From assembly GCF_040436345.1 (NCBI RefSeq), contig NC_133232.1:35568265-35632264 (forward strand): DNA of 64,000 nucleotides, read 5' to 3'. The DNA comes from Pagrus major (lineage: Eukaryota; Chordata; Actinopteri; Spariformes; Sparidae). How positions within the stretch are numbered: the first letter of the stretch is position 1; each line of letters begins with the position of its first letter. The notes beneath the pieces are model-generated. The model saw only the letters and a program-made list of their open reading frames with translations. It had not been told where the DNA came from and ran no database searches. This document shows, piece by piece, positions 8,444-59,447 of this stretch. The translations under genes and the position numbers were made by a program.

Positions 8444-11400
8444 CTATGAAAGAGACAAACAATCATTACATAAGCTGGCTCTCATGTGTAGATTACGTGC
8501 AAAAAAAGACAAACAAACTGGAGCTTTTTTGGAAGTGGCATGCCACTAGCTCAGATAAAAGGACACCTTATCTCTAAACGAAAGTCTGCACTTGCTTACA
8601 AAAGCAACTTTGTACCTTCATAGAGCAGCAGGAAGCCCTCTGTTAAACTGCTGGGTGGAGCCACGTCGACTGGCCTCTGAAACTCTGTGTTCCTGGCATT
8701 AATGTCTGCACCAAAGTCCAGCAGCAGCTTCACTACAGCTGTGCTGTCTTTTTCTGCAGCTGCGTGTAAGGGTGAATCCAGGGATCTGCCTTTCTGGACG
8801 TTTGCACCTGTATGCAGGGAAATCCATTCAAGACAATCAGATACTTTCACTGCTAAATATCATCCATAAATGTTCTTCACTGTAATCCCAGAGTTAATTT
8901 GTGACTATGTTTTCTTATTTACAGCACATTTTGTATTTACCTGTCTCCCCTGCTGCCCTTGTCTACCTATCAATTTCCTACATTTCCCATAAATTGCTTT
9001 CAACAGCTCTGAAAGGACGTGAACTTGTTACTTTCAATCATGCAACAAATATCAGCATACAAATAACTTTGAAATTGTGGTCAGTCGGCTGTGGGCGATG
9101 TGTGACAGCTGTGCCACTCCATCCTCAAATTGAATTGTCCTTATATGATCTCTAGAATAAGACTGAGCAGTTTTGGAAAAGAGCTGACAGACTAACATCA
9201 CTACTGATATTTACCCTTGCACGGATGATTTACATAATTGCTAAAATATAGAGCTGTTGCCTCTGGGCTGGAAATGCCTGTCAAGTAATTTGCAATTAGG
9301 TACTTCATCAGGAAAAGTGACTGTACTCCAACTTAAGGCCAAACAAATGTGTTGTTAAAAAACTCAAATAATTGAATTACTTTGTTTAATGCAGAATTCT
9401 TGTGTGTCAAGGTCTAAATGGTTTTTCAGAATCTTTTGAAATCCACCATGCATTCGTATGTGTCAGCATATTTACATTCTCGTCTGTGCACAATAAATGT
9501 GTTTGTGTGTCTGTGTGCGTATGTTCATACAGGATGTCTGCCTGTCTGTATGGCGATGTAAAGACACACACTGTGCTGCGCGCTGACCTTCCCTCAGGAG
9601 CTTCCTGGCACACTCCAGCTCTTGGCAGACGCAGGCTGTATAGAGCGCTGTGCCCAGGTGAGGAATGTCCATGTCCACATCTGCCCCCCAAGTCACCAGA
9701 GCCTCCACACAACCGTAATGACCTGCGGGAGTAATGGAGCATGAAGACAGTAATCAGTAAGTGACAATACGAGATAATTCTCCAAGCTGTCTGCTCAGGT
9801 CATGTTGGGATTTATTTTTAAAGCTGTTTTGTCACAGTGCGGGTGTGGAAGGAAAGTGCTTTATGGCACAGCAAAGGACAAAAACGTACAGCTACTGTAA
9901 GATATAACTGCCAGAGTTAGGATGATAAATCGCTTCATGCTGCCGAGTGTTAATGTTGTAATGTCAGGATGTTGAATATCAGCAGCTAAGAAGGATAAAT
10001 TAGTAATGGCGAGTTGCATTAATGACATAACTTGATCCTGAACTTACTCACTGCCGCACAACACTGTTAAGATGTCCAATGCTTTAAACAAATCTAAAGA
10101 AAGCTACTTGATGTATTAGTTGATGCATTTTGTCATATATGCAGAATATCTTGTCATAATTACCTTTACTTGTAGCTTCGTGGATGGGCGACGGATCGTA
10201 TACAAGCCTCTGAGGTTTTGCTCCATTTTCCAATAAGATTTCAGTGCATGCCACACTTCCCACTGTACAGGCGTTGAACAGAGGGGTGACTCCATCAATT
10301 GTAGAAGCATTGACCTGTAAACACATTTTTTTTTAATTGTTATTTTTGGGCCTTGTTTAAGTATGCAAGTTGACTAATAGCAACCGCCTGAGGGAACAGT
10401 TGAAGGGGAACAACAGCTTAATAGCTCTACAGTGACTTATAGAAGAAGATCAGTACATTGCTCATTTGCTGCCCCAACCCAGATTTTCTCATCCGTGGAA
10501 ATGACATTTGACCTGTGCAGCGTACCAACATTAAAGGCCAATACGTGACTTACATTTGCTCCTGCATCAATGAGAGCTCTAGCACAAGCGACATGGTCTC
10601 CAACACAGGCCTCGTGAAGGGGTGTCACATGGTCTATGGTCAGAACATTCACACTGTGACCCTGGAAACAGCCACAGACATTTTGATGTTTTTGATTAGG
10701 TGAAACATGACCTCTGTCAACCTCTATTGGTGTACACCATGAACTGCAAGAACAGTACTGAGGCTTATCTCCTTTTTTACAAAACAGGCCCTCCCTCATG
10801 GTTGTGCTATGGAGTTATGGTTGTTAGTAATTGACTACAGTATGCAATACAGTCACATTTGAACAGAAGTGATAATAATAAGCAATAAGTAATAAGCATG
10901 ATAATTAAAGTGCAGAATCAAATGCTGGTCTGGTAAAAAGCTAATCACCATATAAAATGCTGTCATGATATAACTGCTCTGTCTTGAGCTCGACTGAGTT
11001 GAGAACAAGGAAATATTGTCTTTGTAGCTAAAATGGCTTCCTCACTTGAAGCACATCCTCAATCTGTGAGCATTTGAAGATGCAAGAGGGAGAAGAGATT
11101 CTTCCAATCTCCTTTTTATGAGTTTTTAGTCTTTATTTATTTATTAGCCAGATATAGCATAATGGTTATTATGTGCATAATAGCTACCAAGATTTATTAG
11201 TTTACTTCAAAGACTTGTTTTAGTGCCGTATTATTTAAGTTGGTAAGTCATGCTATTGTAAGCTGCTTTTCATAAGTGGCTTTTCACCAAACATTTACAT
11301 AGAGCAAGTAGAAGGAACTTTTATTTAGTGTTGATACCACCGGCCCCTGTGGACAAAACAACCCTCGCTGTAAAGATCCTACTTTGTCTAGGACGTGTGT

Positions 11401-39030: not shown

Positions 39031-42000
39031 CTGTAGGAAAAGTGCAGTGAAACGTTAACGCCTGAACATGGCAGAACCTGACTCTCCAGGCCATTTAGAA
39101 CCAGCTTCTGCTCTGCTTCAAAGAATTTTTCATCCCCGTCTAAGATAATGGTGTTTTCAAGCTGTGTTCTCAAGCCAAAAGTAGATAAATCCCCCATGAC
39201 AATTTTACAGCAACACTTTTTGTGTAAAGGCCTAAGAAGAGACCAAAGCATCATAAATAGCTTCAAAAGATTGTTTTAACAGTAGGAACACCAAAATATT
39301 ACATATAAAGTTAGACAGTGTTCTAATGTGTTCAATTGGTAGATAAAACAACAAGACAGAGGAAAGAACACGTTATGCTTATTTGGCGTATTATTATGCA
39401 AATATTGCCCAATTAAAATTGATTTTGTATGAAATACATCGCAGTCCAATTAAGAGATGGCAGCTTGAAACTTCTGACATCAGAGAAAAACAATGAAAAA
39501 CAGAGCATTTGTTTTGGTGCCTGTCCGAGCCTGTACACTTTCAAAAGCATAGTGTCTGTCGGCTGGAGGAGTATAACAGTTGTGTTTGTGTTCAATATGC
39601 ATGAGAGATATTAGTGCTACCCACCGGCAGATCATCCCAGAGCTGACTCTTGCTTAGTTCATAGGACGGCATGCTCAAATCGAACTTTGGGACTGGAAAC
39701 CCAGGAATGGTGTTGTGCAGATGAAAGCCAAAGGTTACGAGCCAGCTGTTCACATCTGTGCAAGAAGAATAAATTAAAGACAGAAAGTTCACGAGTTACA
39801 ACATGAGTAGCAGCGTACCAGATGATACATTTCTATTTGAAAAACTTCTGACAAGAACGTTTGAAGAAGGTTCTGACAAACTTTCTTGAACAGTCAACGC
39901 TGAGCATTGCTAATAATTGCTAATTATTACAACACAAACAAAATTAAATAAAACCCAGATATGAAACATCCGATTAGAAAAGGATAAAGATTTAATATGC
40001 AAATTATCAGGGATTTTCTCTACTATTTTCCGACAATTTAAATAATTCATGGAGAAATTCATCTGCAGAAAAATGGGTAATGAAAATAATCATTAGTTGC
40101 GGCCCTTATAATCATAATCAAACGTATCAGAAGCTTTAACCATGATATCTCTTACCTGCAACATATTCTCTCACTTCATGGACTTTGCTGATGGGGTTGT
40201 TATTTCTGAACATGTATAAATTAAAAGGAGCTGGCTCTTTGCCAACTTTTTTCCACGTAGAGACATCTGGAACAGTCCACCTTCCAGACATTATATCGTA
40301 ATCCTGCTCCCCGAAGTGCAGCAGTTTGGTCAGGGGATCATACAGTCCTCCGTGAAACCCGAGCACAAGCTGGAAGTCTGGGTTTGAGTCGAAGTAGACC
40401 TCCCCGTATGCCGTGTACTGGAGCTGTTTTACCAGGAGGCCGTTGCTCGTGAAGACAGCCAGAGGTGTGCCGGTGTTATCACAGGCGATGTAGAACTCCT
40501 CTCCGCTGCTGATCTCCATTGCAAACAGGTGTCCTTGGAGGTCGTAGTAGAGCGAGGTGATCTCTGAACTGGAGTGGTTATATACATGTGTAATCCTGGC
40601 TGGGTAGCTCAGGTCTGCGTAGAAATATTGCAGGTGTTGGCCCAAGCTCGTCTTAGTGGACACTCTGCGGCCGAGTCCATCATAGCGATACTGAATCGTC
40701 CAGCCATTGCTCTTGCTGTAGACCCGCACCAAGAGTCCTTTGGAGTTGTACTCAAAAATTTCTGCTCCCCTCTGACGGAGGAAACCATCTTCATCCATTC
40801 TGTATTGGATATCTCCAAGGCGGGTGATGCGGTCTCTCAAGTCATAGCGCAGAGGAAGAAGTCTGGCACTGTTTCCTGCGTTCAGCAGGTGCAGATTTCC
40901 ATTAAGGTCATATGTATAGCGCCACATCACTTTTTCATTCAGATACACAGTCTGGAGCTGGCCATCCACATCATACTCATAGCTGTACTTGGTGGTGTTG
41001 GCAAAGGGGCCGATCTTGATCTCTCGCCTGATGACTCTGCCCACATCGTCGTACTGGAAAGTGATCCAGTACATGAGCGAGCGGAATATCTCATACTGGA
41101 TCTCCTTGATGCGACCATGTGCATCGAAGTGTTTGGTGTAGGTCATGACTGCGGTGGATATGATTTGATTTATATCGTAGTAAATAACCCCGAACTTCCC
41201 AAACTGTTCTACCTTTCCTGAGATGTCATCAAACTGGTACAGATCGATGGGTAGTGGTGTTTCGTTGATGACGCCTTGCACGCTGGTGACACGCAGGCTG
41301 CTGTCATAGGTGTAATCAAAGCGTGCATTGACCATGCCATCCTCACTGAAGCGGAAAATCTGCCGGTCCACCAGGGGACCCACTTGGCGATAGCGGATGG
41401 AGCAGATGAAACCTTCATTCTGCAGGTTGACCGTCTTCAGCACACCTGCCGTCTCGTCGTAGGTGAAGCTGACCCTTGTGCTGTCATACAACATCTCTGA
41501 CAGTTTGTTCTGCCGGCGGTACCTGTACAGGACCCTACGGCCTGTGCCAAGGTGAGCTACTCTCAGTAGGAGGCCATCTTCGCTGTAGTCCACAGCCACT
41601 GAGGCGTTGCTCTCTGGGGGATGATAAAGGTTCCTGTAGTAGCCCACTGAACGGATGGTCTGCATGGTGTAGCGGGCTACGCTTGGCATCGTGACAGCAG
41701 AAAGCCGGTCCAGGGAGTCGAAATCAAATATGTACTGCCGTTGACTGTGGAGCAGGAGAACCATGGACTAGAGGGAAAAGAGCAAAATAGCAAGTGTTTT
41801 CTTAAGTTGTGTAATATTTATACATAATATATGTGTAATGACAGGCGGGTTGAGTGCAGTCAGAGTGAGTAGAAACAGGGTATATGAAAAATGCACTGGG
41901 TAGAGTTAGCTATCAGATTGTCTGATCTGTTAATGCAGAATACAGTATACAGCTTTAGTTTCAGTGTTATAAGTACTTTGAAAATGATATATTGATGTTT

Positions 42001-45000: not shown

Positions 45001-48000
45001 TGGTTTCAGTCTTTAGGATTTTTATTCAGCTTTTCTCGCAAAAAAGAATGAACATGAATGATGTGCTGAAATAACTGGACCATCTGGCTCTGGCAGCGAG
45101 TAGAAACCATTTAGATACAAGGTTGAACTGACACGCCAAAGCCTGCACACTGACAGAGTAATCATTTACACTGTCGTCTGTCAGACCCTCTGAGCTGTAA
45201 TGATACACGACTTAAGCTTACTCAACATTGCCCCGACGACCCCCGAAACAATGACAAATAACGGCTTACAAAATAGCTGCCTGAGTCGGGAAGAAGAGTT
45301 GTGGCCCTTACCCTGAGCCAGAGTGTAGAAGGCACGGATGGTCGAGGTGTTCGTGGTGATGCTGATTTCTTCTTCCGTCATGGAGCTTTCGATGTCCACG
45401 GTCAAAGCGCTGTATATGTCTGTGTACAAGTTATTCACCATTCCAGTGGGGAACGTCACATTCATTAGCCGTCCTTCACTGTCGTAGCTGTTTGACAAAA
45501 ACATCAGGAGACAGAAGCACTGATGTGTATGAGAGCTCTCAATGCCACAATGCATTGAATTATCAGCTCTTTTATACTTGTTGAATAAGACCATCAACAT
45601 TATTCTAATTAAAATGTCACTTTTCTTTCATATTTTTTTCTTTTTCCAGTTTCCAGAGCGTAAGTGACACGACGTCTGTATCAACCCAGAGCGCAGTCCA
45701 AATATTTGATATGTGAGAATGACACATTTCATCAGCTATCCGTTTCATATGAACTTTATATTAATGGATTGGATTCTTTGGATGATTGATGTGTCATTAT
45801 AATTTAAACTGAATGCTTTGCTTTTTTTTTAGTTATAGTGAGGATATCATTCATGGCATAATGCGACATGACAGCAAATTACACAAGGGAGAAAAATTCA
45901 ATCACTGAGAGGGCATGCTATTGTGACCATGTTATGGTGGCTTATTATTGTAAAAAAAAATACATAATCATGGGTGGATTTTGTTTAGCTTTCCTCTTTT
46001 TAAATGTATTTATGTCAGAAACAACATCACATTGTAACCAACACTTATGCTGCTTCTTCACTCATGGTTTATTCAAGAAACGGTAAAAGTAGAAGAAAAA
46101 GTAGCATACGTTATGGATATGGAGTTATTAAAGTCTAACTAGGCTATTTTACAGATCTGAGGCAAATTTTATAATTAGGTTTCAATTAAATGTGCACCCT
46201 AAAGCATTTTGCAGGTAAGTACGGTTACCATTTATAGAGTTAACTTGTACTGAGCTGTGAGACGAGAAGGAAGAAGCACAGGGTCACACACATGCACATG
46301 TCCATGTCCATACACAGCAAATATTTTTGTCCTTGTAACTCATGAGTTGAAAAACGCAATAAACATCCTGGCGTTGTCCCTCAACTGTAAAGCCTCCTGA
46401 TCCATGAGAAGCATGAATACTTTCTCTTTTTTAATTCCAAAACATAAAATGATCTGCCAACGCCAAAGTGTATTTGTTTACATCATTTGAATTAGTATGC
46501 ACAAAGGAGGAGGTGTTTTTTAATTTGTACAGTGGGCTGGTTCCAGATGCAAAAGGCCTACATTTAATTGCAAACTAAATCAGTCTGACTTTCCAGAGAA
46601 TGAACTTGCCAGTCTCCATTATACTTACTCGTAGAAAGTTGTCCAGCCAATCTCGGATGTCTTTGTAGCCAGCAGGCCGTTGTTGCCATGGTAAGTTAGA
46701 AGCACTAGCTCCTGGCCCTGCGCTGTGAGTGTTTTCAGCCCGCCGTTGGTGCTCATGCTCAGCCAGATCACCTGGTTGTCAGGGGCGACGATACGCACAG
46801 GCGTGCGGTTGGGATCCCTACGGATTCTCAAAGTGTTGCCACTGCTGTCCGTAACAGCTGTGATGTCATTCTCTGTGCTGTAGCTGAAAGTGTATTTCGA
46901 GTCGCCAGTGAGCAGGCTGGCAGTGTGTTGGTGGGTGCCATTGCTGTCAAACATATACAGCTCCTGCGCATCGGGGGACGCCACTTCATATGTACCGGCA
47001 CTGGAAGTCAAAGTTGGCCCATTTCGAGCGATGGCCCGGATGCGGATGTTGCCCAGGTCTGCCACATAGAGTGTTCCATCTGGGGCTGCCACTAAAGAAG
47101 ATGGAGCATTGAGCCGAGCATCTTTGGCATAGCCGTCGCCTGTCTGGTAACAGTCGCAGTTGGCATCATTCTTGCAATCACAGTCGGAGAGAGCCCCGGC
47201 CAAATGAGTTATCTCACCATCCACAGAAACCTTTCGGATCCTGCTCATCTTTCTCTCATCTGTCTCCGCTATGTAGATGGCCCCATGGTAAGAAACAGCA
47301 ATGGAAACAGCTGATTCGAGAGGGGTTAACTGAGCCCTTTGACCGCCGGCCAAGCCACGGTCCAGTCCAGCCAGCGGGCAGTGGATAGGTCGGCCAGCTG
47401 CAATGCTCACTTGACCGTTCTCTGTGATGCGCAGCACAATGTTGTTGTCCAGGACATACAGCGAGTTGTCCATGGGGCTAACTGCTAGGTCTGTGGGCCA
47501 CTCCAGAATCACCTGAAATACAGGACATCATTAGATTGGCTGCTGTTTTTTTCACTGGAGATCAACACACTGGAAAAGATGCCACTTTGGAAAGAAGTAA
47601 AAAAAAAAACAAGGCACAGGAGGTGTTTTTCTTGGCTGTAAAAAGTCCCATTCATCTCACCAGAATGCTACTCTCTAGGTGATTTTGTGTTATATTAAGT
47701 GTAATAAGATGTTTTGGAATCGAAATGAGATATTCTTGGTAAGATTGTGAGTTTTTAAACATTTTCAATTTAAAACAATAGCTGATTACTCAAAGTAATC
47801 ATGACCACAAATCAATTCATGGGCTCATGAACAATAAAGCACCTTCCAAATTCTCAAGGTCTAAATCAGCAAGAATAGAAAAAAAATAAATAAAAAAAGC
47901 AGTGATGCTGTAACATCAACAACATGACTGTAATGAATAAATCTTCAGTGTAGTCACATTGTGGCTGATATCGAGAATACCTTGAGCTGTGAGGAGGCTG

Positions 48001-51000: not shown

Positions 51001-54000
51001 GCATCTCTGCTTGCATGACTCAGTGGACAGAACACGATGGATACATGTGTCAAGCTTGCCTTCCCATTATTCAGGTCACTGCAAAAAGCACAGCCGTCAA
51101 TAATTCAAGGGCTGCTTTTCTGCTATTAAATTATTTCTAAGGCAGAAGTGGGAAAGGCTGTATTCATACGGTATATATGCACTTGGTGCATCTTGTAACC
51201 CTCCTCTCTAAAAGAGGACCTCAGGAGGTGGGGGTGTCAATGAGGGGCGAGTCTGGGCGATTTTTTTGACATCGGCAATCATCAACAATCTGCACACCAT
51301 TTGAGAAATGAATGAGCGAGGGAGCGGAAATGACAGCTTCGGCCAATTTTAGATGAAAGGGGTGAAAGACAGGCAGTTGCCATGGTGACAACTGTGGACT
51401 AAATTGTCTCAATGATTGAGTGTCAGCTCAGAGTTGTAAGTTGCAGCCAAGCCAGTGTGGAGTTGCAATAACCATTTGTCCCAAACTGGGAAAATACATT
51501 AACGGACCACGGCAGCCACCACATCGCTCTCCGTGTCACCGTGCTGCTTAATAGAGACCAGCACCTATGGGAATTCAATCATACCTCACATGCAAGCAGA
51601 CTGATATTTATTCACCGCGATGCCTTCAGCATGCTGTGGTTTTGGCTTGAATTCAAAAGACGGAGACCCGCTGATCTCAGGAACATGTATGTATAGTGAA
51701 AGAGATTGGGAGGATTTAAAATGTTTTGAATGCGCTTTAACTTCTGCCTTACCTCCAGCGTATGATTTCTTTTTCAATGAAGTCTTTAAAAGCTTCTATG
51801 GAAGGTGAGTGGTTTGGTTTGACCTGTGGCTAGGTCTGCACAAGATTGCTTTCTGCTAAAACATTGACGAGCCCAGGGAGCCCACGGTGAATCCTTGGGA
51901 GCTGGCTATTTGACAGTCTGAGATTCTCAGACAGATGAAAAGTGTCACATTTGAGCAGAGTTCACCAAATGTCTGAGGGGAGGGGAAAAAAATGGAGCCA
52001 TCTGCTGTTTCTTCTCTGGTCTCGGCTTCCACCCACTCCATCATTAGAGTCGCTCCCTCAGATTGCCTTCACTCAAGCCTTTATCACCCAGCTGAAGCTG
52101 TGCTATTGCAGTTGGCATTCAGAGTGGGCAACAACTAGCGCAAAACAATTCATCTTGGCCTTTTCATCCAGAAGAATTTATGGAAAAGTGAGCAATCCAT
52201 GCACAAATGGCCATGTGCTATTTGAATATGGACTACTGGATGTGCACAACAGGTAATTTGTGAATTGCTTTTACTTTAATCTTTAAAGGCCTGCAGACTT
52301 TCACAAGAGCTGTAAGAAAAAAAAGTTACAGTTCTTCAAGTAAACATGATTATTTAGTGGAATATCCAATTATGCAAAAAATAAATTATGCATTATATTT
52401 CTGGAGGTTAAAACAACATCTTTTTTTCAGGCAGCAGCTTTACGCAGCTTTAATTTACAAAAGGATCAGTTCTCTTATTCGACAGTCACTGCTTACTTTA
52501 ACTTCAACACATGAACCACAACTCACATTCATCCATTAAAAAATCAGTCAGCCAGCAGCTGGCACCGACCCCAGTGGCACACATAAATTTAAATTTAGCA
52601 GTTGCCACTCCTGACTGAGAAAACCCATCACCGCGTCCCGCCCCTCCATTTCAGTCCCACATCTTCATTAGTTTTAAACCATACCTTTGGGCCCAGTGAG
52701 AGAGGCCTCTGGAGCTTTGCCTCCGTCACCACAGTGGTTCTCATCAAAGGGCAGACAGTGTTCCCCAGTTCCTGCCATCACCTCTGCATTGGACTGCAGG
52801 TCCTTGGTCCCGGTTAAGGTTTTCGGGCGGTAGATCCTCCGGGAGTTTGTGTCTGACACGTACAGCTGGCCACTTACTGGATCAGTGGCCAGGTAATACC
52901 GGTGTGCCGGGTTGTTACTGCATTCAAGACAATAGCTTGGTTATATATTATTTAATGTGCCTTTAGTTTGCAGACCAGCAGAACTTTTCTTTAGATGCTC
53001 TTTCCTTTACAGTGCAGCCAAATAGTCCTTTAATGGTGCTAATTTATACTAAAGTAATCTCATGCAATAATCTCTAAAATAGCTGTGGACTATAAACCCC
53101 CAACTGACCCCTGATGAAATTTTGCCTCATTTTCCCTCTGAATAAAACAGTTAGAATCAAGAATATTATAGCGAGTTTTGTGCATTATGCCTCTCCAGAG
53201 GTTACATGTTTTGAGAATGCGTTAGATTTTGAAGTTGTGTCGACAGAAAACACAAAAACATTCCTTTCATAACAATGAAATGAATATAGACAGGTGCATT
53301 GTTTTAATTCTAACAGCACGTCCTGCGTCCTTCACACATTGTTTCAAGTGTAATGTAACAAAGGAGCCGTCTTCAGACTATTGTTTAAATTGCATTAAAA
53401 GAAATGACAGGAAGTTAATGCCAATGTTCAATCAGGTTTTGTTATTAGCATTTAAGCTGTCGTGGTATTTTCTAAAACACACACTGTAAATGGCTTATTA
53501 AGTGTCATTTCTTTTCCAGTCCAGTTGCTGGTGAAAATATAAACCTTATTATCAATTTTAAATCAGCAGCAACATCGTCATTTATGTGGTTAATGAACAG
53601 TAGAATGAAATAATGATGTTGAAAAATTTCCACAGCAGAAAAAATAAAGAGTGTTTGTGAATGAAAAATAAAAGACAACGTGAAAGAGAGAGGGATGAAA
53701 AGATGGAAGTCAAACAGAATTGAACAGGATACCGCAGCAGTGGGCTCCCAGCTTACAAAGCAGAAACGACAAATTGTCAGCCAGATCACTTCATCTGTTA
53801 TCACTCCCCTGTGGCGAAAAGCCTTTGGGAATTACAAAAAAAATGACTGGCTTATGTTAACAAAGTGCAACAACTAATGGCACTGCATCTAGTTCTGTCT
53901 CATAATGGATCTGACCCCAAATCAGTGAGCAAATGTGTCAAACACTAGGAATCAAAAGACTCACAGCACATCGTTGACTGATTTAGATTTGAGGAAATTA

Positions 54001-57000
54001 AATCATTTTATGTGACTTTCAAATAAACTCAAAATACTAAAAAAAAAACTATTGACCTCTTCTATTAATGCAGAGTTGATACATAGCGGGTGCTTAAGCG
54101 CCATTAAAGAGCTAAAAACAGAGGCAGTTAACATGAAAAATAGCTTGCTTTACAGTGCAGTCGTAAACATGGCTTCTCTGCTTGTACTCCAGCTTAATGG
54201 TACCTCAGTCAATACTGGTTGGCTTTAGAAGTGGGATAATGTGACGGCAAAATAAATGTGGCAATGAAACATCTTTGTAAAATGATGAAGATGGAGCCAT
54301 AAAATCTGACAGCTATTATGAGTCAAAGTAAATGGCCAAAATAGGAAGCTGCTATCAACTTCCTATAAAGAATTCAGCGAGACGCACATTAGAAACCCTT
54401 TCTTTTACAGTCAACCTTTAGGGGGTGGACACAATAAATGAAACACCTGTATGACATTATGCAGTCCAATATAACAGCCCTGCAATAAAAATACATTTGT
54501 GGAGTTGTAAGACTTTATTACGTGGTCTTCTTTTGAATATTTTGTTTACCACTTTGCTTATATATAACACCACCTCAAACTATGGCCTGAAACACCTGTC
54601 AGTACCAGAACCACATCTCATTTGACCACTAGATCAGACGTTAACTGTGGCTTGTTAAGGTTTAATGCATCTGTGATTAGCCTACAAGCGTTCCATCATT
54701 CTTGCCCCAAGTTGTGAAGCAGGTGCCAGTCACGTCCTGATTGGACTGTCACAATGTCCTGGTTGTTGTGCAGGCAATCAGAAACATCCAACTGATCCAG
54801 AATTCAGCAGCCCTCATAGTAACAACCTGCTCAAGCTTGGCATGTCAATCTGCATCTCTGCTCCCTTCACTGGCCTCATGTAGTGGCTCACTTTAAATTC
54901 AACACCTTGTTGCTGGCCTACATGTACTCCTGCCAAGAATGGAATATCACCTGACTACCGTCGGTCCACAGTTAAACCGGGCCCTGCAGCAGTCTCTCCT
55001 CAATCTGCTTCTCTGTCTAGCTGGAATTATGCTTCTGCGAACCTACACAGAGGAGGTTGTCATGACTCAGAGACGGGTCAATGTGCACACCTCACGAGTC
55101 TAAACATTGTGTCGCGCTGACCTGCGCGCCAAGCAAGCGGATCGGTTTATACAAGTCTTGTTGGGAAGCAAGCTTGAAACCTAAAATGAAAAGTAAAGAT
55201 TATGCGATACATCAATCGAAAGAAAATTGATCGTCAACCATTATGGATTAAATGTTTTAGTCATTTTTCAAACAAAAATGTCAAACATTTGCTGATTGCA
55301 GCTTCTTAAATGTAAATATTTGCTGCTTTTCTTTGTCATTTCTGATAGAAATCAAAGAGTCTTTGGGATTTAGACTGACAAAAGACAAAGAAGCAATTTC
55401 AAGATGTCCCTTTGGACATTAGATTTTGATGAGCATTGTCACAATTCTTTTTAAATGATTAATCAAATACTGGTAGATTGATCAATAATGAAAATAATCA
55501 TTGGTTACAGCCGTAGTTGTTTTAACACAGGTTTAAAAGAAACAGCTGAATAAGCATCTTTGAACGAGTCCCGTGCTCTTTCATCTGCTGAAGCCCAAAG
55601 AAGCATGTCACCAGGTTCTTTTGAATTATGCATCAGGACCAAATTTAGTTCTCTTTAGAGTGGTTACGCGTACACCTGTCGTTTGTTTCCTTCGGTCAGG
55701 ACCAAAAAACGTCCAGTCCATTTCTCAAAAACAAAACTAAAAGGAGACATACAGTGAGTCACATGGACTGACAGTGGTCAGTCGTGGACATCTATCCTCC
55801 ATCGTCTACACGGATCGTTAGAGGAAAATCAAAACTACAAAGTTTATTCTGGTGACAGATTACGAGTCATGATGCACTTCACTGCACTGGACAGCTTTAT
55901 TTATCTTCTCTGGTGGGTGTGCGGAGCTTACAAAAGAAATTCTCAGATACAGGCATCGATCAAAACTGTACTGCATCTGATCCGAGCTGCTGGAATCAGA
56001 TGAGGAGGAGACAACATATCATGAAGTCAAACAAAGAAGGAGGAAGCTGCTGCAGCGTCCAGGAGACGACTGAGGGAGAGTCTCTTCAGGCCCACTGGAT
56101 TACTCTTTTAGAAGGGCAAGATTTAACAAGAGTTATAAAACAATGCAATTATTTATTTATGTTTACTCTACTTTGCTTATTAGTTTTCACAATTGAAAAG
56201 GAAACATTATGCATTTTAATCTTAGAGGATAGGTGTATTCTTAATAACACAAAGTTGCATTTAACATTTTCTTTTTATTAAATTTGACTCTGCCTGGATT
56301 AAAACTGTAATGAAATAAGAGCTTCTGTGCTTAACATCAGACATCACAAACGAACGGGCTAATCACCCCCGTAATGAAACGATCAAAGGGCCATATTGAG
56401 GTTGTTACAGGGCCGTGTTCGACCCACAGCCCGCCAATTGAATAGTTGTGGTTTGGATTTTAAATTCACACCAAAGTCACATTTCCATATCACATAATCC
56501 AGCTGCCACAGCAGAGACGACACCACCTTAACAGAGTTACTCCAGTTTACTCTGTGTAGCACCTCTGGCGGCTACGGTCCAGTTAATCACTGGGACAACC
56601 TAATTGCCACCAATGTGCATCCTCAGTTGATCTGATGCTGTAGTCTTAATCATGAATACAAAGCAGTTGTGTAAGCCCCTGTGGATAAGAGCATCTGCCA
56701 CCAACACTATAAATGTAATTATAAGATTTAGACTGGCACTGTTTATTGCAGCAGCATTGTAGTGGACTGCATTGCACTTGGTACATTACTGTCAGTGTTG
56801 ATATATATATTTACATGACTTATTTTTTTATATTTATACTTAGAAATACTTTAAATGTCGCAGTGTACGTCGTAGCCATTTCGTCAACAGCCACATCGCA
56901 CTGATTCTGACGGACTGTCGTCTTCACTCTTCCTCTTGTTTAGATGTAATCAAGCTATAATTGGTTTGTTATAATTACACATGGTAATCACTGATGCTAA

Positions 57001-59447
57001 AGGCGACCGTAAAAGAAAGAGTTATTCATAGACTTAAAAGGAGAGGATGATACAGATGGGGATGTACGAGGAATACTAAATCACGTGCACTGAGATAGCA
57101 CACCTACCTGTGTCTAAAGTCTTTGTTTCTACGACAGGGAACAGAGGAAGCAGGAAAAGAGGGAGAAGGAACAAAGACAATGAAATTTGTAATTCTCAAA
57201 AGGATACTTTTACTATTCATTTCAAGGTTGTTATTAGACAGCGTTCTTGTCATAAAAATGACTTACTGGCTTGATTTGTTTTTTTTGCCTTTTGCTAAAA
57301 GCCTTCTTATTCCTCATTGAAACCACGAGGAATAATTGCTGACAAGGACTCAAAGTCTAGCCAAAAATGCACTGCCTCCTCCCCCCCTTTACAGTTTCCA
57401 GTGAGGAAAAACAAACAGCTAAAACTCAGAAAGTCAAAGTATCCCCTTGAAGAATCAACACAGCCACTAGAGAAAGTCGCAGGCAATGACGATCAGTTTG
57501 GCAGAAAGACGAGAAGCGGGACTGTGGTCGAGAGATACAACCCACAGAGAGGAAAATATGTACTGCTATCTGCATACAGCCCCGTCCTGCATTACCATTG
57601 TTTCTCTCAATTTGACCACTCATACTGAAATATTGATTCTGCCACTTGTTATATTGGCCACTGAAGCCAGAATCTAAACACAGACTTTATGCTAACAGCA
57701 GTTGAGAGAGGTCCAGGGAATCTCAAATGAAGCATTTGGACTTTTATATAACAGGCATTCATCACACATACCAAAAACTGCAACCACTTTAGTCTTTGAT
57801 TGTTTGGAGGAAACTAATATCAGATACAAAATAAGCAATTTTCAGCAAGAAATGAAGTTATTGTATATCATTTTGACCGTATTGGTTTAAATCTGCACTG
57901 CAGCCACCGTCTGATGCAAACTACAGCGTTCCTTGGTGTTTCTTTTATGTCAGATGAAACTTAATTTGTCTAATGCGAGCCTTCATAGTAGTGTTTTGTG
58001 CTTCTCTCCGTGTAAACAGAGTAAAACAGTTGCTTGGAGACATGAACCATTTCTTAAACCATTATTTATCTAGGGAAGCGTTGCTGAGCATGCAAACTCC
58101 TTTACAGCAGCAGGCTGCCTCCCATTCACACTGCTGCACGCTTTCCCACACGATAACTGCCCTGTAGTGGATGATCACTGCGCAGGTACATCGGCAGTAG
58201 AGGAGCAATAATTAACTGATTAAATGAATCAACAACTATTTTGATTTTAATCAGTTTGAGTCCTTTTTTAAACCGAATATTTTCTGGTCTCTTCACTCCT
58301 CCATTACAGTAAACTGAATATCTTTGGGTTGTGCACAAAAACAACTTTTTTGGACTTCATGTTGGGCTTTGGAAAACATTTTATAGATCAAAAAAACTTC
58401 CAATTAATCAAGAAAATAATTAACAGATTAATCGCCAGTTTAAATAATTATTTGCAGCCCTAATTGGCAGGTTTATGAGATGGAGAGCAATGTTTTAAAT
58501 CACTCAACCCTCGTAATCTTAATACTAAGTAACAAGCCACGTAATGCACAACAAGTGTGCTGACCTGTGTCCTTTCAAGGCAGTTTTCATATGTTTGCCA
58601 TGTATGTGTCTCATGAAAGATGATGGCCCAATGTACATTTAATCAACATCTGCCACTATGAAATAAGCCAACTGGCCGAATCAGAGTCATTGCTGGGAGA
58701 AGCCAACTTGGCATGAGGGCGTAAATCATCCCAATTACACGGCGAAGACAGGATGTCTTTCCTAATTATGGAGATGGATAGGGAAAAGATTTCAAATTTC
58801 TATGGGTAGTGGAAAGACGTGTGTGACTGCAAGTCTGTCCACCATGCCATTTCAGTCTCCCTCACCACATGGAGGACTAAATGTGGGAATGTTAGGTGGG
58901 GTCCAAAATCTTAAACTGGACGTATTTTTTTTTAGGGGTCATCTACAGTTTGTTGTGTGTTTTTATTTGTTCTTGTACTTTTAAGTTGGAAAAACATCCA
59001 TATAATACATTTAAAGCACAAAACACTATAATGAAATATCTTTATCTTTGATACAAATGTAAAGGTTAACACTTTCCTACCATTTGGCGAAGTGACAGAG
59101 ATAAAGAGTCAACAGGTTGTACAATAAATCCTGTTTTCTTTCTTTAAATCAGCAAACTAGTTGTTACATACTCATATAAGAGAGGCCTCGATCTTACCTG
59201 AGCTCCATGATACTTGTGACATTCCCAGATGGGTAGATACGTCGGATGTAGTTGAAATCTCCGACGTACAGACTTCCGTCGATGCCCCACGCCAGAGCCA
59301 CCGGCGCCAACAGCTTGTTGCCTTGGGCCTGCCCGTTACAGCTGGGGCACGAGATGCTTCTGCGCCGCCCGTTACCCATGACGGTAGAGATCACAGGAGG
59401 CTGGAGAGAGATGAACTGGTTCTCCCCGCTGCCTTTGTATAGAATGC
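38278..59447 (-). CDS. tenm3: teneurin-3, 3' half (eleven exons; 5' end outside window)
   Basis: Eleven exons join in frame to 1,581 residues plus stop, out of roughly 2,700 for the family. Teneurins are type II transmembrane synaptic adhesion proteins that dimerise and bind latrophilins and FLRTs. In order: NHL beta-propeller (59447-46629; e.g. [58 protein letters not shown]); YD-repeat barrel (45487-40156; [48 protein letters not shown]); RHS signature near [12 protein letters not shown]; and the C-terminal Tox-GHH-like fold and TCAP peptide (39030-38278). The intracellular region, membrane helix and EGF repeats lie to the right of the window. Paralogue call rests on residue pattern ([40 protein letters not shown]) and linkage to other human 4q genes. 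No disabling change; a microexon at 57108-57128 is probably alternatively spliced. Confidence 0.93.
39625..39755 (-). CDS. tenm3: tenm3 exon (C-terminal linker)
   Basis: Encodes (D)[19 protein letters not shown] then [19 protein letters not shown]. Donor GTGGGT, phase 0. Confidence 0.95.
39995..40110. mobile_element. fragment of a GCAGCCCT-ended dispersed repeat
   Basis: The end AATGAAAATAATCATTAGTT followed by GCGGCCCTTA is the usual edge of a very common fish element; only one end is present. It lies in a tenm3 intron, close to the exon at 40156. Confidence 0.55.
40156..41767 (-). CDS. tenm3: tenm3 large YD-repeat/RHS exon
   Basis: 1,612 nt, from [20 protein letters not shown] to [16 protein letters not shown]. 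It carries most YD repeats (e.g. [37 protein letters not shown]) and the RHS-core signature ending GRWTVPD. Donor GTAAGA, phase 1. Confidence 0.97.
41768..43590 (-). other. tenm3 intron
   Basis: Non-coding; no repeat or exon recognised. Confidence 0.6.
43591..43887 (-). CDS. tenm3: tenm3 YD-repeat exon
   Basis: Encodes [20 protein letters not shown], then [20 protein letters not shown] and [17 protein letters not shown]. Both borders phase 0. Confidence 0.95.
44655..44890 (-). CDS. tenm3: tenm3 YD-repeat exon
   Basis: Encodes (D)[19 protein letters not shown], then [20 protein letters not shown] and [20 protein letters not shown]. Donor GTATGT, phase 0. Confidence 0.95.
45312..45487 (-). 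CDS. tenm3: tenm3 YD-repeat exon
   Basis: Encodes [20 protein letters not shown] through [10 protein letters not shown]. Donor GTAAGG, phase 1. N-glycosylation motif NVT present. Confidence 0.93.
46629..47512 (-). CDS. tenm3: tenm3 exon: end of NHL propeller, start of YD barrel
   Basis: Encodes [20 protein letters not shown], the Cys-rich [37 protein letters not shown], and the first YD-type repeats to IGWTTFY. Donor GTAAGT, phase 2. Confidence 0.97.
47513..50738 (-). other. tenm3 intron
   Basis: Non-coding. About 50230-50460 (GCAGAAGGTTCCAGGCGGAG, then 'GCAGCTTGTAAAAAAGCTCTT') resembles the dispersed repeat noted at 15085-15440. The rest is unremarkable. Confidence 0.5.
50739..50893 (-). 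CDS. tenm3: tenm3 NHL exon
   Basis: Encodes (G)[19 protein letters not shown], then [20 protein letters not shown]. Donor GTGACT, phase 0. Confidence 0.95.
50894..52684 (-). other. tenm3 intron
   Basis: Non-coding. Contains an imperfect X-box-like GTTGCCATGGTGAC (51376-51389). Nothing else recognised. Confidence 0.5.
52685..52917 (-). CDS. tenm3: tenm3 NHL exon
   Basis: Encodes [40 protein letters not shown] and [20 protein letters not shown]. Enters in phase 2, so it can splice either to the microexon or directly to the exon at 59198. Donor GTATGG, phase 1. Confidence 0.95.
54770..55020 (+). mobile_element. probable LINE (L2-like) remnant
   Basis: Forward translation with stops reads IQLIQNSAA then a degraded HWLP-like region, resembling the end of an L2-type reverse transcriptase ORF (LIQNSAARLLT...). 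Very decayed; low confidence. Confidence 0.35.
55200..55515. mobile_element. decayed GCAGCC-ended dispersed repeat
   Basis: Starts with inverted-repeat-like AATTGATCGTCAACCATTAT and ends ATCAATAATGAAAATAATCA, GGTTACAGCCG. Same family as the pieces at 39995 and 58190. Confidence 0.55.
57108..57128 (-). CDS. tenm3: tenm3 21-nt microexon (NHL splice insert)
   Basis: A 21-nt exon with acceptor GTCGTAG and donor GTAGGT. Joined in frame it adds seven residues, giving MEL-RNKDFRHS-NNPAHR; skipping gives MEL-S-NNPAHR. The insert matches the known NHL-domain insert of teneurins (splice site B), which affects adhesion and dimer shape. Both flanking introns are phase 2, so inclusion or skipping keeps frame. 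A pyrimidine-rich tract with a TGC 22 nt upstream of the acceptor resembles SRRM4-regulated neural microexons. Confidence 0.9.
57129..59197 (-). other. tenm3 intron 5' of the microexon
   Basis: Contains the pyrimidine tract and TGC next to the microexon acceptor (57129-57170), and a dispersed repeat at about 58190-58462. No further exon recognised. Confidence 0.55.
58190..58462. mobile_element. GCAGCCCTA-ended dispersed repeat
   Basis: Contains TTAACTGATTAAATGAATCA at one end and AATAATTATTTGCAGCCCTA at the other, the typical edges of this fish element; interior non-coding. Confidence 0.6.
59198..59447 (-). CDS. tenm3: tenm3 NHL exon (first in window)
   Basis: Encodes (x)[39 protein letters not shown] and [20 protein letters not shown] through MEL. 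Enters in phase 1 from an exon outside the window. Donor GTAAGA, phase 2. Confidence 0.96.

Follow-up and report, generated by a model that had tools for sequence, protein, structure and literature searches.

A 21-nucleotide exon in the tenm3 gene of Pagrus major is very probably the orthologue of the vertebrate teneurin-3 splice-site-B microexon

In a 64,000-nt stretch of Pagrus major DNA (hereafter, the window), the 21-nt segment at positions 57108..57128 of the minus strand is very probably orthologous to the splice-site-B microexon of vertebrate teneurin-3. It reads (AG)A-AAC-AAA-GAC-TTT-AGA-CAC-AG(T), that is, RNKDFRH plus S. The exon as such is not novel, since site B is well documented among mammals and the literature already includes a tenm3 B0 line of zebrafish (excerpts of PMC12626420); the finding is the orthologue of an already known exon, which the original prediction spotted correctly.

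We characterized the segment by its borders and reading frame. On the minus strand from 57139 to 57102, the intron sequence ...CCCTGTCGTAG is followed by the exon, AAACAAAGACTTTAGACACAG, and then by the 5′ splice site GTAGGT (57102..57107), so that the exon is bordered by AG and GT. Its neighbors, likewise on the minus strand, are two exons that match the Pfam family TEN_NHL (PF25021). The upstream NHL exon (59198..59447) ends with ...GAGCTCAG, its donor GTAAGA coming after ...CTCAG, and the downstream NHL exon (52685..52917) starts with TAACAACCC after the acceptor TGCAG. The gap between them measures 6,280 nt and consists of an intron of 2,069 nt before the microexon and one of 4,190 nt after it, in agreement with the prediction of a 21-nt exon standing alone in an interval of about 6.3 kb. 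Both borders are in phase 2, and no frameshift arises whether the microexon is included or skipped: the joined exons translate to ...MELRNKDFRHSNNPAH... with the microexon and ...MELSNNPAH... without it. Inclusion places RNKDFRHS where a single Ser would otherwise stand, again as had been predicted. A Pfam search with the joined protein returned the teneurin NHL domain (PF25021) with an E-value of 7e-74. An Rfam scan of the whole window at gathering thresholds gave no matches, and no tandem repeats were found in 52917-59200.

We assign the host gene to tenm3 because both its NHL stretch and its YD-shell score highest against Ten3. When the joined NHL stretch was compared with the Protein Data Bank, the best scores were 333.5 bits for mouse teneurin-3, 305.2 bits for teneurin-2, and 297.1 bits for teneurin-4. 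The first 187 amino acids of the YD-shell open stretch (40136..41767, minus strand) scored 352 bits with Ten3, 316 with Ten4, and 280 with Ten2. Mouse Ten3 chain 8r50 contains ELRNKDFRHS exactly, and chain 8r54 is seven residues shorter across that stretch. The portion of PMC11058771 drawn on here gives RNKDFRH as the mouse Ten3 splice insert B and places it between NHL blades 1 and 2. The peptide of the fish exon is that insert and the gene scores best to Ten3, which upholds the earlier claim of a teneurin-3 NHL site-B insert. Several features of site B were found in this segment: a position between two NHL exons, a length of 21 nt, frame neutrality, an RNKDFRH-type peptide, and a teneurin-3 host.

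The genome searched comprised 786 Mb in 25 contigs, and a protein search placed five teneurin genes among the matches listed (11 exon matches). Five genes, with a second tenm3-like copy among them, are not unusual, since zebrafish has six teneurins, whose extra copies are tied to whole-genome duplications (excerpts of PMC6428715). A degenerate DNA pattern that included the splice borders, searched over the whole genome with up to one mismatch, gave four matches, all with zero mismatches; the reversed pattern used as a control gave two. The four matches (C18:35.63M, which is the copy in the window, C18:19.41M, C2:6.41M, and C1:37.59M) all lie in homologous teneurin introns and all encode RNKDFRH, and the six bases that vary among them all fall within the seven third positions (hypergeometric p = 1.3e-4). 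In the fifth gene (C18:18.88M), the same intron contains GAACCGGGACACCAGACACAG between AG and GT, which encodes NRDTRH and scores 30, the next candidate scoring 5. Judged from these sequences, the B microexon is under peptide constraint across the paralogues of this fish. By Protein Data Bank scores, the C2:6.41M gene is Ten4 (341 versus 309 for Ten3), the C1:37.59M gene is a second Ten3-like gene (231 versus 204 for Ten2), and the C18:19.41M gene is narrowly Ten2-like (314 versus 312 for Ten3). The C18:18.88M gene is near none of them (254 for Ten3, 249 for Ten4, and 247 for Ten2, with no Ten1-named chain in the list) and is taken as tenm1 because the other paralogues are eliminated. Mammalian Ten1 carries an NKDTRH-like insert.

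The teneurin genes also vary in arrangement and exon structure. The tenm1-like and tenm2-like genes share a chromosome with tenm3 and are separated from each other by about 0.5 Mb. In the second tenm3-like gene, two introns, one of 155 nt (L015:4426-4580) and one of about 870 nt (L007, about 641-1507), split both NHL exons, each of which is continuous in the remaining four teneurin genes; the reading frame picks up again after each intron. Window positions 46625-47527, in tenm3, form a long single open stretch that is also unbroken in tenm4. In each of the remaining three genes its counterpart is interrupted near residues 31-36 and 96-102, and the C1 and tenm1-like genes show additional splits. 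Another long single open stretch of tenm3, 40136-41767, has a counterpart that is split in the tenm2-like gene. Either intron loss or intron gain could account for these differences. Elsewhere in the window, an open frame on the minus strand (10437-10814) contains an ankyrin repeat (Pfam PF00023, E-value 3.3e-05) and is perhaps an exon of a neighboring gene.

We consider it exceedingly improbable that the segment is never spliced in and represents either a chance match or a relic without function. Strings of the form AG-N21-GT are common enough, the 6,280-nt gap having 27 of them (the microexon included) on its coding strand, but among the open candidates in a 7.1-kb region the insert is encoded by the microexon only (41/41; next 11). 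Likewise, when 1,286 open AG-N21-GT candidates from 224 kb of two teneurin loci were scored on both strands, the two that reached the full 41 were the tenm3 microexon and the copy in the other teneurin gene, with the runner-up at 19. Silent differences alone distinguish the four exon copies that share the peptide, which also speaks against a relic. A small exon that this fish includes constitutively, and that hence provides no switch, would fit an acceptor tract and a donor that both look usable. We nevertheless regard it as very unlikely, given that the frame survives skipping, that mouse Ten3 is documented both with and without the insert in the literature excerpts used here, and that tenm3 B was one of 45 microexons deleted in zebrafish in work on developmentally regulated ones (excerpts of PMC12626420). 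Our preferred reading is that of a site-B microexon that would be alternatively spliced.

How its splicing would be regulated is a separate question, on which the sequence before the acceptor AG (57130-57129) bears. There, a pyrimidine-rich tract on the minus strand (57131..57194) runs for 64 nt without another AG and is 90% pyrimidine over 40 nt; it includes a TGC (UGC in RNA) at 57150..57152, positions -24 to -22, as a possible SRRM3/4-type element. The long pyrimidine tract and the TGC 22 nt before the acceptor that had been predicted are therefore both present, and the arrangement has the layout of SRRM3/4 microexons as given in excerpts of PMC12626420 (an exon of 3-30 nt with UGC and a polypyrimidine tract just upstream). 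UGC occurred within 40 nt upstream of 5/5 paralogous microexons versus 12/36 rough control acceptors from two teneurin genes (Fisher p = 0.008), and the AG-free tract of the five microexon copies spanned 54-140 nt versus a control median of 31 (p = 0.003), both p values being indicative only because the controls are rough and include false sites. These controls were chosen near tblastn ends by pyrimidine content, sites below 0.55 pyrimidine being dropped, and several are clearly false, for example those with an AG-free tract of 0. Because one third of the controls also carry UGC, its enrichment is suggestive only. The neural-type splicing context proposed originally is consistent with the sequence: UGC is present in all five copies and the AG-free tract is long. 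The context is suggestive of, and consistent with, SRRM3/4-type control. It is rather unlikely, though a possibility of some weight, that the exon is alternative but mainly under other factors (for example, PTBP, RBFOX, or QKI), so that the UGC-based label "neural-type" would be misplaced; this alternative bears on regulation alone and leaves the site-B identity intact. The frequency of UGC among the control acceptors favors such factors, as does the tenm1-like copy, in which one TGCATG, a word of RBFOX type, lies no more than 30 nt from the donor. PTBP binds pyrimidine-rich tracts, and the tract found here would suit it as well. Conversely, UGC accompanies a long AG-free tract in every one of the five copies, none of the four exact copies is followed by GCATG within 400 nt, and 42 of the 95 microexons conserved between mouse and zebrafish have the UGC plus UC layout, with 44 more similar, according to excerpts of PMC12626420.

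As a cassette exon, the site-B microexon would, upon inclusion, put seven residues into the loop between NHL blades 1 and 2 while keeping the frame. Neural SRRM3/4-type factors acting at the upstream UGC and polypyrimidine tract may favor inclusion, a step less firmly supported than the identity of the exon. As in mouse, the B1 form would then mediate homophilic trans-adhesion and the insert-free form would not, an effect that the identical peptide makes probable in this fish. Because of this presumed difference in homophilic adhesion, the B microexon would tune partner matching, and one may reasonably infer that this fish retains isoform-dependent synaptic matching. In the mouse experiments described in excerpts of PMC11058771, insert-free Ten3 formed no homophilic clusters, A0B1 clustered most, and the effect of B was large only if A was absent; in chick, ventral retinal axons were attracted by the monomeric B1 head. 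The literature, as far as the excerpted texts go, disagrees on the function of insert B. PMC7195488 reports that the Ten2 insert abolishes binding to latrophilin-3 in trans but not to the soluble protein, with restricted access as the proposed cause, and PMC6978801 reports that the NHL loop without the EGF insert promoted no homophilic interaction and that latrophilin was bound. In zebrafish, removal of microexons resulted in mostly minimal larval phenotypes (excerpts of PMC12626420).

The partner site A has a different distribution: B was found in five of the five teneurin genes and A in two of the five, the C1 gene having been examined for A partly. A site-A pattern searched over the whole genome with up to three mismatches gave two matches, as did its control. 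One of them, with a single mismatch (C2:6426743-6426773), encodes AHYLDKVVK inside the EGF7-EGF8 interval of tenm4. The other, on C14 with three mismatches, is at the level of the control (two matches). Less securely, the short EGF7-EGF8 interval of the tenm1-like gene contains a putative site A, a 30-nt segment, flanked by AG and GT and in the correct phase, that encodes VTHDLDVVVK; its score of 25/43 barely exceeds the background maximum of 23, so the assignment depends chiefly on location, phase, and borders. The EGF7-EGF8 interval of tenm3 (C18:35650929-35656122) lies beyond the window end, and the stretches covering it contain no N. A pattern for a 27-nt AHYLDKIVK-type exon, allowing up to eight mismatches, had its sole match at the tenm3 locus outside that interval, with seven mismatches, and three eight-mismatch matches at the tenm2-like locus, one of them inside the EGF7-EGF8 interval without a GT border. 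When all AG-N27-GT candidates were scored, the best values were -2 in tenm3 and 4 in tenm2-like, and the any-frame peptide score reached 14/43 in each of the two intervals, the tenm3-locus background being 14 to 23. At the two ends of the 17 kb EGF7-EGF8 interval of the second Ten3-like gene (C1), the best score was 23/43, equal to background, and the site-A patterns with up to three mismatches had no match in the interval.

Site A may have diverged or be differently placed in tenm3. We tentatively consider another possibility, somewhat short of an even chance, that tenm3 and the tenm2-like gene lost site A and kept B, so that B alone would act as a binary switch of homophilic adhesion and only the 1/4-type genes would retain A. 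In tenm3 of this fish, B may be the only short switch, because A is not recognizable there and the effect of B in mouse is large only without A. If this is true, an off/on choice between A0B0 and A0B1, the latter being the strongest clustering form in mouse according to the excerpted source, would replace the mammalian four-isoform code. If site A is truly gone, tenm3 would also provide a natural test of the B switch alone, a switch for which mouse studies have used isoform constructs. Among the papers that a literature search listed for teneurin microexons and EGF7/EGF8 splicing, no title or abstract opening reports a loss of site A in fish, and the main texts of PMC12626424 and PMC13281805 do not mention tenm or teneurin.

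Among known systems, the closest is insert B of mouse teneurin-3 (excerpts of PMC11058771 and PMC5851990; PDB 8r50/8r54), which has the same seven residues, RNKDFRH, in the same gene and at the same place in the NHL domain. The fish exon differs from it in being known from genomic sequence alone and in that insert A (AHYLDKIVK) is not recognizable in fish tenm3. The zebrafish "tenm3 B0" line (excerpts of PMC12626420) concerns the same gene and site, a likeness drawn by gene and site and not by exon sequence; its existence tells against the objection, raised as a refuting condition at the outset, that the segment is not conserved in other teleosts. The teneurin-2 insert NKEFKHS (excerpts of PMC7195488) has the same site and length and switches adhesion and latrophilin binding in trans; it belongs to a paralogue, and NKEFKH and NKDFRH differ in two of their six positions, where E replaces D and K replaces R.
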